Assembly: GCF_031880315.1 (NCBI RefSeq)
Contig: NZ_CP134771.1
Location: forward strand, 1,178,001 to 1,242,000
Source of the DNA: Pseudomonas baltica
Lineage (GTDB): Bacteria; Pseudomonadota; Gammaproteobacteria; Pseudomonadales; Pseudomonadaceae
DNA: 64,000 bases
Direction: 5' to 3'
Shown: piece after piece, positions 35,098-58,788 of the stretch
How positions within the stretch are numbered: position 1 is the stretch's first letter
Layout: every line of letters begins with the position of its first letter
The notes under the pieces: model-generated
Databases searched by the model: none
Seen by the model: only the letters and a program-made list of their open reading frames with translations
Told to the model about the DNA's origin: nothing
Translations under genes and position numbers: made by a program

Positions 35098-35160
35098 ATC
35101 TGTGTCTCCGGTGGATCAGTAGCGGCGCTGGCGGGCCTTATGAAGATCTCTTTGTAGGTG

Positions 35161-35475
35161 CATGGCTTGCCAGCGAAGGCGTCAGTCAGACCGACTTCGC
35201 GGGCAAGCCTTGCTCCCACAGGTGTACGGCGATGGACCTACTGACTCTGTAGGAGCATGGCTTGCCAGCGAAGAGGCCAGTGCTGGCGACTTCGCGGGCA
35301 AGCCTTGCTCCCACAGGTGTACGGCAATGGACCTGCTGACTCTGTGGGAGCATGGCTTGCCAGCGAAGAGGCCAGTGCTGGCGACTTCGCGGGCAAGCCT
35401 TGCTCCCACAGGTGTACGGCGATGGACCTGCTGACTCTGTGGGAGCATGGCTTGCCAGCGAAGAGGCCAGTGCTG
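35161..35475. repeat. 95-bp tandem REP/BIME array between urtA and urtB
   Basis: A 95-bp unit repeats in tandem at 35161, 35256 and 35351, with a partial copy from 35446. Copies 2 and 3 are nearly identical; copy 1 is more diverged. Each unit holds opposing REP palindromes (CATGGCTTGCCAGCG and CGCGGGCAAGCCTTGC) around a spacer GGTGTACGGCGATGG. The array fills most of the 409-bp urtA-urtB gap and contains no gene. REP stem-loops at this place would shield the urtA message from 3' exonucleases. Confidence 0.93.
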
Positions 35476-35506
35476 GCCGCCGAAAATCAGCGGCCAGACT
35501 CAGGCC

Positions 35507-36868: not shown

Positions 36869-36958
36869 AAGCGCCGGGATTTACGGCATTCTCGCGCTCG
36901 CATCAGGCACGCGCCCTGCATGCTGATTGCTCGCACCCCGCGCCTCTGGAGCTCAGCC

Positions 36959-39900
36959 TTGTCCATCCCCGGTACCCAACGCATCGCCAAGATCCGTCGT
37001 GACTACAACCGCTGGGTCGCTGACGAGAGCATGGAGGACTACGCCCTGCGCTACGCGCCCTCCTCGTTCCGGCGCTGGAGTGAGGGGCGCATCGTCAACA
37101 CCGCCTTGAGCTCGGTGTCGTTTCTGGTACTGGAGGCGGTGGGCGGCACCCTGGTAATGGACTATGGCTTCACCAACACCCTGTGGGCGGTGCTGGCGGT
37201 GGCGCTGATCATCCTGTTGACCGGCCTGCCGATCAGCTATTACGCAGCCCGCTACGGCGTCGACATGGACCTGCTGACCCGCGGCGCCGGCTTCGGCTAC
37301 ATCGGCTCGACCATCACCTCGCTGATCTACGCCAGCTTCACCTTCCTGTTCTTCGCGCTGGAGGCGGCGATCATGGCGCTGGCCCTGGAGCTGTACTTCC
37401 ACATCCCGCTGGCCTGGGGCTACGTGTTGTGTTCGGTGATCATCATTCCATTGGCCGCCTATGGCTTCACCCTCATCAGCCGGCTACAGATGTGGTCGCA
37501 GCCGTTGTGGCTGGCGTTGCTGATCGTGCCGTACGTATTCGTCATCTACAAAAGCCCGGGCACGCTCAGCGACTTCACCTCATTCGCCGGGCGCCATGGC
37601 GAGGCAGGCACCTTCGACCTGCTGCTGTTCGGTGCGGCGTTGAGCGTGGTGCTCTCCCTGGTGACGCAGATCGGCGAGCAGGTCGACTACATTCGCTTTT
37701 TGCCGCAGCGCACCGCGCAGAACAACCTGCGCTGGTGGACCGCGCTGCTGCTGGCAGGGCCCGGCTGGATCGTGCCCGGAGCACTGAAGCTGATGGCCGG
37801 AGCCTTTCTGGCGTTTTTGGCGATTCAGCATGAAGTGCCGGTGGCCCGCGCCGTCGAGCCTACGCAGATGTACCTGGTGGCCTACAGCTACGTGTTCAAC
37901 TCGCCGGAATGGGCGCTGGCAGCCATGGCGCTGCTGGTGGTCATCTCTCAGGTCAAGATCAACCTCACCAACGCTTACGCGGGCTCGCTGGCCTGGTCGA
38001 ACTTCTTCGCGCGCATGACCCACAGCCATCCGGGGCGCGTGGTGTGGCTGGTGTTCAACGTGGTCATCGCGTTGCTGCTGATGGAGATGGGCATCTTCGA
38101 CGCCATCGGCGAGGTGCTCGGCCTCTACGCTAACATCGCCATTGCCTGGATCGGCGCACTGGTGGCGGATCTGGTGATCAACAAGCCGCTGGGGCTGTCG
38201 CCGCCGCACATCGAGTTCAAGCGCGCGCACCTGTACGACGTCAATCCGGTGGGGGTCGGGGCCATGGGCGTGGCCTCCCTGGTGTCGATGCTCGCGCATT
38301 TCGGCTGGTTCGGCGCCTTGGCCCAGGCCGCTCCGCCGTTACTGGCGTTGATCACCGCCTTGATCGTGGCGCCGCTGATCGCGTGGGCAACCAAAGGACG
38401 CTACTACCTGGCACGGGAAAGCGACCCCGGCCTGCTGTATCCCCTGGGCACTACGGCGACGGTGACCTGCGGCGTGTGCAGCAACCCCTTCGAGCGCCCG
38501 GACATGGCCTGGTGCCCGGCGTATGCGTCGCCGATCTGCTCGCTGTGCTGTTCGCTGGAAGTGCGTTGCGGCGACCAGTGCAAACCGCGTTCGCGGCTGT
38601 TGATGCAAGTCGAGGATGGCCTGGCGCGGCTGTTGCCCAAGTCCTTCTCGCGCAACCTGCACACCCGCCTGGCCCACTACATGGGCATCCTCGCCGTGCT
38701 CATCGCGCTGCTCTCCGGCGCCTTGGCACTGGTGTACACCCAGGTCACCCACAACCTCGCCGAGCACTCCTGGCAAACCCAGCAAACCCTGACCCTGGCC
38801 TTCATCAAGGCGTTTCTGGCGCTGTGCGTCTTCGCCGCAGTGCTGGCCTGGTGGGTGGTGCTGACCCGCGAAAGCCGTCACGTGGCCCAGGAAGAATCCG
38901 AGCGCCAGACCGCCCTCCTGATGCAGGAAATCGAAGCCCACGAGCAGACCGACCTGGCCCTGCAGCGCGCCAAGGAAGCGTCCGAAGCCGCCAACGCCGC
39001 CAAGAGCCGCTACGTCACCGGCCTGTCCCATGAACTGCGCACGCCGCTCAACAGCATTCTCGGCTACACGCAGATTCTGCAGCGCGACGCCAGCACCCCG
39101 CCGCGCCAGCAGGAAGCCCTGGCGACTATCCTGCGCAACAGCTCGCACCTGCTGTCGCTGATCGACGGCCTGCTCGACGTGGCCAAGATCGAAGCCGGCA
39201 AGCTACGCCTGGAGCCGTCCGAAATCGCCTTCATGGATTTCATCCGCGACCTGGAGCGCCTGTTCGCGCCCGCCGCCCATGACAAGGGCCTGGGTTTCGG
39301 TCTGCAGATCATCGGCGAGCTGCCGCTTGTGGTGCGTGGCGACGAGAAACGCGTACGGCAGATCCTCATCAACCTGCTGGGCAACGCGGTGAATTTCACC
39401 GACAGCGGCGAAGTCTGCCTGCGAGTCAGCTATCGCCGCCAGACCGCTACTTTCGAGATCATCGACAGTGGCATCGGCATCGCCGAAGACCAGCTGGAGC
39501 GGATCTTCCAGCCATTCGAGCGCGGCGAGATCGACCGCCACGACAACGGCGTCGGCCTCGGTCTGACCATCACGCGGATGCTCACGGCCCTGATGGGCGG
39601 CGAGATTTCGGTCAGCAGCGTGCCGGGTGCCGGTACGCGTTTCCAGGTGCGGCTGTTTCTATCAGAAGTGCGGGTGCCCAAGGCGATCATCCATGCCGAC
39701 CACGATCTCATCGGCTATGCCGGGCCACCACGACTGGTGCTGGTGGTGGACGACCATGTCGAGCATCGCCAGGTCATCAGCGGCATGCTCACACCGTTAG
39801 GCTTCAACGTCGTCCAGGCCGCCAACGGGCAGGAAGCGATCCGCCAGGTGTCGTTGCTCAAGCCGGACCTGATCCTCATGGACCTGTCCATGCCGCAGAT

Positions 39901-40357
39901 GGACGGTTGGGAAACCAGCCGCCTGATCCGCCGCAACGTGCAATGCCTGGCGCCCATAGTGGTGGTGTCGGCCCACGCCAATGCGCTCGCCGACGAACGT
40001 GCCGATCATGACCTGGGGCCTATCGATTACTTGGCCAAACCGGTGCTCCTGCAGCACCTGCTCGACCGCATCGAACACCACCTGCAACTGACCTGGCTGC
40101 GGGCTGCACCGGCACTGGCGGCCCCCGTGGCGCCGCACCGGGCGCTGGCCAGGGCGGAGCTGGCGCTGCTGCGCGAGTTGTGCGCCGATGGCGACATGAT
40201 CGAGCTGCAAGAGCAGCTCGCGAGTATCGAACAACGCTGGCCCGACAGCGCCACCGCAATCGCGCGGTTGCGCACCCTGGCCCGGGGCTTTCGCCTGGAT
40301 GAACTGAATCGGGTACTCACAGAGAGCATCAATGAACATTCCCGCGAGCGCCTCTAA
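36959..40357 (+). CDS. NCS1-transporter-fused hybrid histidine kinase
   Basis: About 1132 residues. Residues 1-500 form a 12-helix NCS1 (cytosine/purine/allantoin permease-type) domain starting IPGTQRIAKIRRDYNRWV. Next is a Cys-rich segment (CGVCSNPF, AWCPAYASPICSLCC, CGDQC; nine Cys in about 40 residues, possibly metal-binding), two more helices, a coiled coil, the HisKA H-box SHELRTPLNS (His near 691), HATPase boxes GNAVNFTDSG and NGVGLGLT, and a receiver domain (VVDDH, ILMDLSMPQMDGW). The TTG at 36959 has GGAG 7 nt upstream and sits at the family start; an ATG at 36920 without an RBS would add 13 residues. A transporter turned sensor, presumably for a small nitrogen compound. Confidence 0.88.
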   Translation: MSIPGTQRIAKIRRDYNRWVADESMEDYALRYAPSSFRRWSEGRIVNTALSSVSFLVLEAVGGTLVMDYGFTNTLWAVLAVALIILLTGLPISYYAARYGVDMDLLTRGAGFGYIGSTITSLIYASFTFLFFALEAAIMALALELYFHIPLAWGYVLCSVIIIPLAAYGFTLISRLQMWSQPLWLALLIVPYVFVIYKSPGTLSDFTSFAGRHGEAGTFDLLLFGAALSVVLSLVTQIGEQVDYIRFLPQRTAQNNLRWWTALLLAGPGWIVPGALKLMAGAFLAFLAIQHEVPVARAVEPTQMYLVAYSYVFNSPEWALAAMALLVVISQVKINLTNAYAGSLAWSNFFARMTHSHPGRVVWLVFNVVIALLLMEMGIFDAIGEVLGLYANIAIAWIGALVADLVINKPLGLSPPHIEFKRAHLYDVNPVGVGAMGVASLVSMLAHFGWFGALAQAAPPLLALITALIVAPLIAWATKGRYYLARESDPGLLYPLGTTATVTCGVCSNPFERPDMAWCPAYASPICSLCCSLEVRCGDQCKPRSRLLMQVEDGLARLLPKSFSRNLHTRLAHYMGILAVLIALLSGALALVYTQVTHNLAEHSWQTQQTLTLAFIKAFLALCVFAAVLAWWVVLTRESRHVAQEESERQTALLMQEIEAHEQTDLALQRAKEASEAANAAKSRYVTGLSHELRTPLNSILGYTQILQRDASTPPRQQEALATILRNSSHLLSLIDGLLDVAKIEAGKLRLEPSEIAFMDFIRDLERLFAPAAHDKGLGFGLQIIGELPLVVRGDEKRVRQILINLLGNAVNFTDSGEVCLRVSYRRQTATFEIIDSGIGIAEDQLERIFQPFERGEIDRHDNGVGLGLTITRMLTALMGGEISVSSVPGAGTRFQVRLFLSEVRVPKAIIHADHDLIGYAGPPRLVLVVDDHVEHRQVISGMLTPLGFNVVQAANGQEAIRQVSLLKPDLILMDLSMPQMDGWETSRLIRRNVQCLAPIVVVSAHANALADERADHDLGPIDYLAKPVLLQHLLDRIEHHLQLTWLRAAPALAAPVAPHRALARAELALLRELCADGDMIELQEQLASIEQRWPDSATAIARLRTLARGFRLDELNRVLTESINEHSRERL

Positions 40358-41722: not shown

Positions 41723-41735
41723 CTCGACTTGCCGG

Positions 41736-41820
41736 CCCCTTCGCGGGCAAGCCTTGCTCCCACAGGTGTACCGCTCTGCATCTGCTTGCACTGTGGGAGC
41801 AAGGCTTGCCCGCGAAGGGG
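41736..41820. repeat. REP palindrome pair between nitB and nitC
   Basis: Perfect 30-bp arms (41736-41765 and 41791-41820) around a 25-nt spacer. It splits the first two genes of the nit operon. Confidence 0.92.
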
Positions 41821-41875
41821 GCCTCACAGCCGCCATAGATCACAGCACCCGCCACCCATCCAGAGGCCCGTCACC

Positions 41876-42829
41876 ATGCCCATCATCCGCGCCGCCGCCG
41901 TCCAGTTCAGCCCCGTGCTGTACTCCCGCGAGGCCACTGTCGCCAAGCTCTGCGCCACCGTGCTCGAACTGGGCCGCGAAGGCGTGCAGTTCGCGGTATT
42001 CCCCGAAACCGTGGTGCCCTACTACCCCTATTTCTCCTTCGTGCAGCCGCCCTTCGCCATGGGCAAGCAACACCTCAAGCTGCTCGAACAATCCGTCACC
42101 GTGCCCTCGGACGTCACCCGCCAAATCGGCGAGGCGTGCCGCGAAGCCGGGATCGTCGCCTGCATCGGCGTCAACGAGCGCGACGGCGGCACCCTCTATA
42201 ACGCGCAACTGCTGTTCGACGCCGACGGCAGCCTGATCCAGCACCGGCGCAAGATCACCCCCACCTATCACGAACGCATGGTCTGGGGCCAAGGCGACGG
42301 CTCCGGGCTGCGCGCCACCGACAGCGCGGTCGGGCGCATCGGCGCGCTGGCCTGCTGGGAACACTACAACCCGCTGGCCCGCTACGCGCTGATGGCCGAC
42401 GGCGAGCAGATCCACGCGGCGATGTTCCCCGGCTCCCTGGTGGGGCAGATTTTCGCCGAGCAGATGGAGGTCACCATTCGCCACCACGCCCTGGAAAGCG
42501 GTTGCTTTGTGGTCAACGCCACCGCCTGGCTGGATGCCGAGCAGCAGGCGCAAATCATGACCGACACCGGCTGCGCACTGGAGCCGATCAGCGGCGGCTG
42601 CTTCACCGCCATCGTCTCCCCGGAAGGCAAGGTGCTCGGCCAGCGCACAGAGGGCGAAGGCGCGGTGATCGCCGACCTGGACTTCGCCTTGATCGACAAA
42701 CGCAAACGCATGATGGATTCGGTGGGGCACTACAGCCGGCCGGAATTGCTGAGCCTGCTGATCGATCGGCGGGCGACGGCGCATGTGCATGAGCAGCAAC
42801 AGACTTGCGGGGAGCACAGCCATGAATGA
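41876..42829 (+). CDS. nitC: NitC, Nit1-type nitrilase
   Basis: 317-residue carbon-nitrogen hydrolase of the Nit1 group. The catalytic triad is visible: Glu in [10 protein letters not shown] near 46, Lys in [11 protein letters not shown] near 128 and Cys in [16 protein letters not shown] near 162. ATG 41876 has AGAGG upstream and starts [13 protein letters not shown]. In Pseudomonas fluorescens NCIMB 11764 the Nit1C nitrilase is needed for growth on cyanide as nitrogen source; that is the best functional guide, but the true substrate may be an organic nitrile made by the cluster. The stop overlaps nitD by 8 bp. Confidence 0.9.
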
Positions 42830-44294
42830 CTCGACGATTTTGCGCAAGCTGCAAGGGCCTCTTCGCGGGCAAGCCTTGCTCCCACAGGTGTGCGGCTCGG
42901 ATTCGGACAGTGCCGTTCACCCTTTGGGACCACAGCTTGCTGGCAAGCTGCAAGGGCCTCTTCGCGGGCAAGCGTTGCTCCCACAAGTGTACGGCTCGGC
43001 TTCGGACAGTGCCGTTCACCCTGTGGGACCACAGCTTGCTGGCAAGCTGCAAGGGCCTCTTCGCGGGCAAGCCTTGCTCCCACAAGTGTACGGCTCGGCT
43101 TCGGACAGTGCCGTTCACCCTGTGGGAGCACAGCTTGCTGGCGAAGACGTCGGCAAGCACGCCCCGGATCCCAAGCGTACGCCTGTGGGAGCAAGGCTTG
43201 CCCGCGAAGGCAGCACCGCCAGTCCCGACCTGCTCGCCGAACTGCAGTGCCACGGTGTGCGCTGGCAAGGCGCCGACGGCCTGGCGCGCAAGGGCGGCGC
43301 CGGGCCCTCGGATCACAAGGCCCTGAGCCTGGGCGAGCACACCGCCATGGTGCCGATGCTCAACCGCGCCTCGCTCGACTCGCCCTACTCCGCCGTGCCC
43401 GACAGCAGCGGCGCCCAGGCGCTGATCTTTCGCGAGGGCCTGCAAGTTGGCCAGGTGCAGCTGCCCGGCGTGCCGAAGTTCTACGGCCTGAACACCGAGG
43501 ACGGCATCCCCTACTGGAAGATCGCCACCCTGCACAGCAAGGACGTCCTCGCCACCACCGTCCTGCAACACTGCATCCGCATGAACGAAGCCGCCACCTC
43601 GTGCCAGTTCTGCGCCATCGGCCAGTCGCTGGCGAGCGGCAAGACCATCGCTCGCAAGCGCCCCGCACAACTCGCCCAAGTGGCCAAGGCCGCCGTCGAG
43701 CTGGACGGCGTCAAGCACATGGTGATGACTACCGGCACGCCGCAGACCAGCGATCGCGGCGCCGCCATCCTCTGTGAATCGGCAGCCGCCGTGACCGCCG
43801 TGGTCGACCTGCCGATCCAGGCGCAGTGCGAGCCGCCCGACGACGACGCGTGGTTCCAGCGCCTCAAGGACAGCGGCGTGGTATCTCTGGGCATGCACCT
43901 GGAAGCCGTCACCGACGCGGTGCGCCAACGCATCATGCCGGGCAAGGCCGAAGTGCCGCTGGAGCGTTACTTCAGCGCCTTCGACGCCGCCGTGCAGGTG
44001 TTCGGCCGCGGCCAGGTGAGCACCTACATCCTCGCCGGCCTGGGCGACAGCGAAGACGCCATCGCGCAGATGAGCGAACGCCTGGCCAGCGTCGGGGTGT
44101 ATCCCTTCGTGGTGCCCTTCGTGCCCATCGACGGCACCCCCCTGGCACGCCACCCCAAGCCCGACAGCGCCTTCATGCAACGCCTCTACCCGCGCATCGG
44201 CGCCAGCCTGCGCAAGCACGGCCTGCACTCGGACAACATCAACGCCGGCTGCGCCAAATGCGGCGCCTGCTCGGCCCTCAAACACCACGAGTAA
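42822..44294 (+). CDS. nitD: NitD, MSMEG_0568-family radical SAM protein with in-frame REP array
   Basis: 490 residues from ATG 42822, behind GGGGAG and overlapping the nitC stop. Residues 1-9 are MNDSTILRK; about 10-130 are encoded by three 33-residue tandem repeats ([17 protein letters not shown]...) plus a REP half-unit; the normal MSMEG_0568 protein begins near [15 protein letters not shown]. The radical SAM core has C-x9-C-x2-C ([15 protein letters not shown]) and [15 protein letters not shown]; a second Cys group GCAKCGACS lies at the C-terminus. The frame is open across the whole array. Without it the protein would be about 370 residues, the usual size. Reaction unknown. Confidence 0.85.
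42849..43212. repeat. 99-bp tandem REP/BIME array inside nitD
   Basis: Three 99-bp units begin at 42849, 42948 and 43047, followed by a REP half-unit to about 43212. Units differ at only a few positions. Each carries CGCGGGCAAGCCTTGCTCCC and an opposing CCACAGCTTGCTGGC palindrome. The unit is 33 codons, so copy-number change keeps the nitD frame. Confidence 0.95.
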
Positions 44295-46221: not shown

Positions 46222-46371
46222 ATTTTGTACTGAGTTCACTGGCCTCTTCGCGGGCAAGCCTTGCTCCCACAAGTGCACGGATATGAATTTTGTACTGAAT
46301 TCACTGGCCTCTTCGCGCAGATCCATCGCCGTACACCTGTGGGAGCAAAGCTTGCTCGCGAAGAGGCCATC
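46220..46371. repeat. 65-bp duplication with REP halves between nitG and nitH
   Basis: The 33-bp stretch 46220-46252, starting GAATTTTGTACTGA, recurs at 46285-46317 with one difference, a 65-bp period. Both copies lead into a CCTCTTCGCG REP half, and an opposing REP half follows at about 46341-46371. The first copy includes the end of nitG, so the duplication arose after the REP was already there. Confidence 0.88.
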
Positions 46372-46420
46372 AGCATCGCTGCATCATTCTGCCCCGAACA
46401 CCCTTACAGGAGCACCCACC

Positions 46421-58206: not shown

Positions 58207-58420
58207 CTGCTTGCTCTGGGTCTGTGTGGCGAGCCCTTTCGTTTGGCCCCTCGCTGAGGCTCGGGGTACCCGCACTCCGACGCACTGAAGCTGGGTCCGC
58301 CGCACAAGCGCCATCCATGGCGCAGCACGGCTCCCCCGACATCCTGTCCGGGGCCCCAGCTTCAGCACGCCGGAGTGCGGCCTGCTCGAGGGGCTCGCCA
58401 CACAGCCCCGGAGCAAGCAG
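58207..58420. repeat. 214-bp imperfect palindrome (element 1)
   Basis: Outer arms 58207-58236 and 58391-58420 pair over 30 bp with two mismatches; inner blocks (GCACTCCG/CGGAGTGC and CTGAAGCTGGG/CCCAGCTTCAG) also pair, giving a nearly continuous hairpin. It carries a core CGCCATCCATGGCG next to CTCCCCCGACATCCTGTC that recurs inverted in the 58561-58788 element. The whole 58065-58888 gap holds no credible gene; both elements fill it. Confidence 0.88.
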
Positions 58421-58560: not shown

Positions 58561-58788
58561 ACGTTCTGCTTTCGAATCGGCCTTGGGGGTGCCGCCCGTT
58601 TCCAGCAGGCCGTGCGCAGGTGCCTGAAAACAGGGGCCCCCGACAGGATGTCGGGGGAGCCGCACTGCGCCATGGATGGCGCGTGTGCGGCGTACCCTGT
58701 TCTCAGCACCTGCGCACGGGCACCCCGAGCCTTGGCGAGGGGCCAAATGGTGGGCGGCACCCCCAAGGCCGATTCGAAAGCAGAACGT
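58561..58788. repeat. 228-bp palindrome with perfect 37-bp ends (element 2)
   Basis: Terminal arms 58561-58597 and 58752-58788 are perfect complements over 37 bp. Inner segments CGTGCGCAGGTGC and GCACCTGCGCACG also pair, and the middle contains GCCCCCGACAGGATGTCGGGGG and CGCCATGGATGGCG. It is related to element 1 only through the central core, present in the opposite orientation. No open frame of note; behaves like a non-autonomous element or a structured RNA. Confidence 0.9.

Follow-up and report, generated by a model that had tools for sequence, protein, structure and literature searches.

Genes and REP units at the nitD locus

The DNA analysed here (the window) comprises 64,000 nucleotides of Pseudomonas baltica and lies in a 6.63 Mb genome assembled as one contig (G000:C1:1178001-1242000); positions refer to the window unless a contig or locus is named. 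The two closest relatives found were used for comparison, Pseudomonas sp. MWU16-30317 (L032) and a MAG contig, CAJCIO010000044.1 (L033). The window holds a Nit1C operon that includes nitD. NCBIfam matches gave the order nitBCDEFGH, i.e. the series of an MSMEG_0572 family protein, a Nit6803-family nitrilase, an MSMEG_0568 radical SAM protein and an MSMEG_0567 GNAT protein, followed by an sll0787 AIR synthase-like protein, an MSMEG_0570 protein and an MSMEG_0569 flavin oxidoreductase. The same order has been described for cyanide-assimilating Pseudomonas (PMC11049912). NitD of the window resembles the NitD of that cluster (TIGR04043) in gene order and family matches, but differs in an N-terminal insert that is confined to this clade among the relatives examined. 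The features of the locus are as follows.

41723 to 41875, no strand assigned: nitB-nitC spacer with one REP pair in the window (relatives' spacers compared)
41876 to 42829, plus strand: nitC, Nit6803-family nitrilase, overlapping nitD downstream (frame, NCBIfam match)
42809 to 42824, plus strand: Shine-Dalgarno sequence GGGGAG and ATG of nitD, overlapping the nitC 3′ end (position and spacing unchanged in L032 and L033)
42822 to 44294, plus strand: nitD, 490 amino acids as predicted, MSMEG_0568-family radical SAM protein with a REP-derived insert at residues 10-130
42849 to 42947, plus strand: REP unit 1, 33 codons (TRF, repeat search, relatives' units)
42948 to 43046, plus strand: REP unit 2, 33 codons (same evidence)
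43047 to 43145, plus strand: REP unit 3, 33 codons (same evidence)
43146 to 43211, plus strand: 22-codon tail with an inverted REP at its end, the half-unit of the preliminary description (no amino-acid change across three genomes)
43212 to 44294, plus strand: native part of NitD including the conserved radical SAM core (TIGR04043, alignment, AlphaFold2)
46222 to 46420, no strand assigned: nitG-nitH spacer with a REP pair, an expanded array in L033 (relatives' spacers compared)

The open frame of nitD begins at 42762 and ends with the stop codon at 44294. The ATG at 42822, from which 490 amino acids would be read, follows GGGGAG at a spacing of 7 nt and overlaps the end of nitC, whose stop is the TGA at 42827-42829. 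The preliminary description had likewise named a start upstream of the array, coupled to nitC, as the only one with a ribosome site, and had placed the first Met after the array near 43348; the next in-frame ATG lies at 43347, where initiation would cut into the TIGR04043 match. This match (562.9 bits, curated cutoff 303.7) covered residues 140-489 and model positions 2-353 of 354, a score that identifies NitD as an MSMEG_0568 family radical SAM protein. Residues C251, C261 and C264, which we take to be the Fe-S cluster site, were invariant across 48 aligned proteins. In an AlphaFold2 model based on the alignment of 48 sequences, pLDDT was under 50 throughout residues 1-132 except at two positions, and it exceeded 85 in 31 of the 35 ten-residue blocks from residue 141 on. 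Upstream of the operon, positions 36920-40357 encode a protein of 1145 amino acids whose NCBIfam hybrid histidine kinase matches lie mostly from about residue 660; by eye, its N-terminal part resembles a membrane transporter fused to the hybrid histidine kinase. Two TwoAYGGAY RNA motifs (RF01731, gathering score 43) were also present in the window on opposite strands, at 58600-58725 (plus strand, 60.7 bits) and 58264-58386 (minus strand, 44.1 bits).

Analysis with TRF revealed a repeat at 42844-43142 with a period of 99, 3.0 copies, 96% match and a score of 556, and direct repeats 95-100% identical to each other began at 42844, 42943 and 43042. The in-frame REP array within nitD that had been proposed is therefore real, and so are its three 99-bp units. 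The additional half-unit, however, proved to be one REP of opposite orientation in the arm 43157-43209, so that the array ends near 43211 and not at 43260. Placed from codon 9 to the native NitD, the three units and the 22-codon tail would add 121 residues by frame, in line with the roughly 120 REP-derived residues expected before.

Each 99-bp unit pairs one REP with a second, inverted REP that is more divergent, and its inverted arms are 85% complementary. A REP pattern allowing three mismatches found only the forward sites inside the units, the second REP being too divergent. With at most two mismatches, the REP core occurred at 501 sites of the genome, compared with none for a reversed control pattern. 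From its look, the nitD REP presumably belongs to the class named REPa or GTAG-1. When the genome was searched with the 99-bp unit (40 of 369 first-look candidates scored), matches outside nitD of at least 90% identity covered no more than about 45 bases, equivalent to one REP, and the longest matches were near 78% identity, in both cases among the matches listed. One match to PF01797 (Y1_Tnp; 38.6 bits, cutoff 23) was obtained in locus L233, with REPs on both sides, and this RAYT-type gene is likely to be the mobiliser of these REPs.

A closely related unit was found in the operon itself. The nitB-nitC spacers of L032 (1183-1418) and L033 (1407-1709) contained tandem arrays of it in inverted orientation, and the L032 spacer array, about 1 kb upstream, matched the nitD array at about 92% over 237 bp. 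Because of this close relationship, the nitD array is probably linked to the spacer array by a local copying event. Unit spacings in the nitB-nitC spacers were 98 and 99 in one relative and 90, 90 and 90 in the other (four of five multiples of three). According to our own gene calls, the nitB-nitC spacers of the three genomes measured 153, 378 and 451 (differences 225, 298 and 73) and the nitG-nitH spacers 199, 199 and 524 (differences 0 and 325), with the array of the latter at L033 6036-6471; some length changes in the spacers (298, 73 and 325) are thus not multiples of three. Other intergenic REP runs were a second tandem array in the window at 35153-35477 (95-bp unit, 3.4 copies, not a multiple of three) and long runs at G000:C1:5040108-5040944 (spacing of 102 bp, eight times) and G000:C1:4594617-4594837 (spacing of 40 bp, five times).

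Copy number and selection in related genomes

The array consisted of three units in the window, five in L032 and two in L033, i.e. close genomes differed by whole units and the frame was kept, as in a variable-number tandem repeat. The predicted N-terminal insert accordingly measures 121, 187 or 88 residues. Length variation among strains had been anticipated in the preliminary description, as had the preservation of the frame by a 33-codon unit at any copy number. An assembly with the array out of frame, which would have spoken against the proposal, did not appear among the three genomes, which share the same start and Shine-Dalgarno position; the ATG position, the Shine-Dalgarno spacing and the nitC overlap were identical in all of them. 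Spacing from unit to unit was 99 in seven of seven cases, and no indel was found across the ten in-gene units.

Close NitD proteins (E below 1e-190) were present in 27 of 398 sampled genomes of the genus, our own included. The nearest, with 99% identity, was that of G336, whose nitD contig is the L033 contig; its open frame comprises 477 residues compared with 510 in the window, a difference of exactly 33. The NitD core of L032 was 100% identical to that of the window after rounding, with one amino-acid change by codon counts. A scan of named relatives covered the best 80 of 446 confirmed NitD loci, one of which (L080) ends before the start. Among the other 79, whose 5′ ends are readable, only L032 and L033 had a REP inside the NitD match or in the 700 nt preceding it, and the array was absent from the remaining 77. 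In the 398 genus genomes, unit DNA reached E ≤ 1e-22 in two, G336 and the genome of the window itself (two first-look candidates scored per genome). P. gingeri and others at 90-94% identity had short, variable NitD N-termini. NitD of insert-free relatives begins close to the corresponding position, as in L008 (89% identity), where the start resembles the MNDSTIL of the window joined to its post-insert start. Alignment of related NitD proteins, suggested earlier as a check, thus limited the insertion to one small clade among the relatives examined.

Nucleotide changes were counted by the method of Nei and Gojobori with our own script, for nitD only. In the NitD core, the window differed from L032 by 12 synonymous and 1 nonsynonymous changes (pN/pS 0.026) and from L033 by 32.5 and 3.5 (pN/pS 0.035), and L032 differed from L033 by 38.5 and 4.5 (pN/pS 0.038). 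Strong purifying selection on the core is therefore evident among the three genomes. Since the insertion is common to all three, it is most simply older than their split, and NitD would then, again most simply, have been under purifying selection ever since the insertion. Pooled comparisons of the units gave pN/pS values of 0.53-1.25, i.e. no strong purifying selection on the unit peptides. The 22-codon tail showed no nonsynonymous change, which carries little weight with 0-1 synonymous changes.

These results also bear on the idea that nitD is a pseudogene or the array an assembly artefact. The smc gene of our own assembly carries a frameshift, so this assembly is not free of errors or decay, and the copy numbers of L032 and L033 could be misassembled, the former being a draft with a SPAdes-style contig name and the latter a MAG. 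The low pN/pS of the core nevertheless argues against a pseudogene, and against an artefact stand the gap-free alignment of the window to L032 over 4448 bp and the presence of the array at the same place in three separate assemblies. We regard decay or misassembly as very improbable.

Probable translation through the array

The most probable reading of the locus, to which we assign a probability of about 0.8, is an in-frame insertion of a REP pair in the ancestor of the clade, followed by copy changes in whole units and translation of the array as an N-terminal extension. A REP pair (REPIN/BIME) akin to those of the nitB-nitC spacer would have entered nitD in frame after nine codons, before the members of a small Pseudomonas clade diverged, and would then have expanded or contracted by whole 99-bp units. 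Ribosomes would start at 42822 and translate through the array, giving a disordered N-terminal stretch 88, 121 or 187 residues long, with the radical SAM core left undisturbed; the frame, but not the peptide, would be held by selection. The array may persist because the N-terminus of NitD is naturally variable and the unit, with a length divisible by three, is almost stop-free whatever the frame. Two further genes of the same genomes, smc and sctQ, show the same behaviour. The main proposal of the preliminary description, namely a functional gene containing a REP array that is in frame and varies in length, is supported to this extent by the sequences.

Alternatively, the array might be an untranslated leader with the start further downstream, e.g. 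at GTG 43185 or GTG 43257. Hairpins would then act on the mRNA only, and the open frame would be a by-product of stop-poor REP sequence. Consistent with this, the tandem unit was open in five of six frames, and 21 of 69 gene-REP pairs (genes called inside a REP cluster or no more than 200 nt away from one) had a frame that stayed open across the cluster. An open frame is for these two reasons weak evidence of translation, and the argument that it proves coding was rejected. The codon-usage gene caller also preferred GTG 43185, which lies in the last REP, and the matching start in L032 and L033, in each case a start that lacks a Shine-Dalgarno sequence. In addition, Di Nocera et al. (2013; PMC3733652), in their part on REPs at the 5′ ends of ORFs of P. 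putida, Citrobacter koseri and Stenotrophomonas maltophilia, warn that most of these REPs may not be coding.

Initiation signals point the other way. No Shine-Dalgarno start was found downstream of the array in the window, L032 or L033, whereas all three retain the upstream ATG with its Shine-Dalgarno sequence. Of the 69 gene-REP pairs, only 2, nitD and sctQ, had a Shine-Dalgarno start before the REPs and lacked one after them; in nitH, for instance, a GTG with GGAG lies upstream of the REPs, but an ATG with AGGAG lies downstream. A start at 43257 or 43347 would moreover trim the TIGR04043 match. The ten in-gene units free of indels differ from the nitB-nitC spacer with its spacings of 98, 99 and 90, and the REP inserts of smc and sctQ in the same genomes lie in the middle of the genes. 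An untranslated leader therefore appears unlikely, and the sequences favour translation from 42822 through the array. Genuine N-termini that consist of repeats may be cut short by gene callers, including the one used here.

A unit length divisible by three was rejected as proof of selection. Six of 15 intergenic REP runs of the same orientation also had spacings that are multiples of three (165, 93, 42, 120, 102 and 75; the others were 95, 52, 65, 98, mixed 158/52/53, 40, 40, 92 and 83), and the value of 99 is for this reason not in itself a sign of selection. The in-gene runs had spacings of 99 and 93, plus a 12-codon repeat in smc; the contrast between in-gene and intergenic runs is in the expected direction, with numbers too small to count.

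The absence of the array from protein databases was likewise set aside as an argument against translation. A search with the array retrieved 14 proteins; none had the array, and coverage of the query region was 16-20% for each. The clade seems to be missing from the database, where no protein above 94% identity was found among the best 120 of 7762 (8000 candidates scored), so that its silence on the array tells nothing.

The array could also be kept for a function, either as a coding minisatellite that tunes the length of NitD or through hairpins that set the amounts of NitD-NitH relative to NitC. REPs close behind a stop codon are said to stall ribosomes; no paper on point about stalling of translation by REPs was found among the matches listed. 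A function would fit the copy-number difference between close genomes, the position of the array just behind the nitC stop, the variable REP arrays in the nitB-nitC and nitG-nitH spacers and the folding of the units as RNA, at -41.1 to -48.3 kcal/mol (z -1.55 to -2.99). However, only one or two of the three units clearly exceeded shuffled sequences, with 4, 17 and 0 of 200 shuffles folding as well as units 1, 2 and 3, respectively, and the initiation region was not unusually structured (z 1.08 to 1.59 across the three carriers). The drift of the unit peptides, the predicted disorder of the segment and its absence in the other relatives examined also speak against a function, which we consider rather improbable, slightly more so than an untranslated leader.

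REP inserts in other genes and in known systems

REPs are named for their position outside genes, and their rarity in genes is read as selection purging in-gene copies. A sample of 286 REP sites (at most three mismatches) at 133 loci was compiled from 79 fetched stretches, the window and the loci of the unit search; it was drawn from the first-listed places and thus covers fewer places than the 501 sites with at most two mismatches. By gene calls, 277 of the 286 sites were intergenic, 8 lay inside a called gene (5 loci) and 1 partially so. The nitD units were counted as intergenic here because the caller starts nitD at 43185. The idea that nitD is the sole gene with a REP insert was rejected, as inserts were found in smc and sctQ. 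The view of the in-gene array as unusual thus held in part: the array does not stand alone, and REPs in genes are known from the literature, but its Shine-Dalgarno pattern was rare among the gene-REP pairs.

The smc insert (TIGR02168, 636 bits) occupies residues 174-224 of an 805-aa piece, within the Pfam SMC_hinge match at 125-256. In the two relatives of the clade, smc is a single uninterrupted frame that, with the insert, is 1220 and 1226 codons long, compared with 1163-1191 in ten others, and the insert was missing in nine of nine aligned insert-free relatives (the tenth, L232, was wrongly cropped and excluded). G000 and L221 each have two copies of a 12-residue repeat and L222 has one, a length difference of 12 amino acids. 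In G000 itself, smc is split by a frameshift outside the insert (L220:2160-4577 and L220:4525-5766), which is perhaps a sequencing error. The sctQ gene (TIGR02551, 107.7 bits, cutoff 100.8; L146:2389-3753; G000:C1:6069775-6069989) contains two 93-bp units in frame, which separate its N- and C-terminal parts. This insert was present in all three clade genomes and was 17 codons shorter in MWU16-30317 (L234; L235 was also compared). It was absent from two P. gingeri sequences that, at only 42% identity, are a weak control. Since the inserts of smc and sctQ lie in mid-gene, a later start codon does not explain them, and they make the nitD case more plausible. Weaker in-gene cases were a GIY-YIG ORF (L115:2616-2978, G000:C1:2347042; Pfam, 45.8 bits) with a REP-derived C-terminal tail and a 60-codon ORF with a REP.

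With their high-copy, mostly extragenic palindromic core, the nitD REPs conform to the REP/REPIN elements of Pseudomonas as portrayed in PMC3116915 and PMC3390384, sharing with them hundreds of copies, inverted hairpin pairs, a mostly intergenic location, tandem arrays and a Y1_Tnp gene flanked by REPs, the RAYT being thought to be the mobiliser. Bertels and Rainey (2011; PMC3116915), in the parts that concern REPINs and tandem arrays, treat both as extragenic. The nitD pairs differ in lying within a gene, in frame and in tandem, with a copy number that differs among close genomes. REPs inside ORFs of known proteins in several species were described by Di Nocera et al. (2013; PMC3733652), who proposed insertion in flexible linkers or loops. 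In these intragenic GTAG/CGTC REPs, dimers or groups comprise 20-30 amino acids and larger clusters 43-82, compared with 88, 121 and 187 in nitD, which in addition has exact tandem units with copy-number differences; the main-text parts of that paper on intragenic REPs do not mention nitD, smc or sctQ.

The classic case of palindromes within genes is Rickettsia, where palindromic elements (RPEs) have entered many protein genes without loss of frame (PMC10969869; PMC3733652), and N-terminally decorated proteins of R. conorii are said to be expressed in vivo (PMC3733652). In-frame insertion was found here in nitD, smc and sctQ, with selection recorded for nitD. The likeness is one of behaviour only, as host and element are different, and copy-number differences of tandem units are not described in the parts of these two papers that deal with RPEs. 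Intragenic tandem repeats of Escherichia coli tolA (PMC3477136) also vary in frame in unit number between strains, but the nitD units derive from a mobile extragenic element. In the literature covered, outside which most subscription journals lie, neither in-frame REP copy-number differences between close genomes nor REP inserts in nitD, smc or sctQ of Pseudomonas were found among the matches listed. REPs inside genes as such have already been published (Di Nocera et al. 2013; Rickettsia RPEs); as far as the searches show, the tandem in-frame copy-number differences, the length of the insert and the occurrence in three genes of one clade are new.

We lean towards the wider view that REPs of this clade serve as translated protein-coding minisatellites in several conserved genes (nitD, the smc hinge and sctQ), changing by whole codons. 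If this is true, selfish palindromic DNA would steadily make new disordered protein segments that vary in length, with proteins of chromosome segregation and metabolism among those affected. A clade with three such genes would be a direct test bed for whether REPs are neutral passengers, raw material for disordered segments or regulators of operon stoichiometry.
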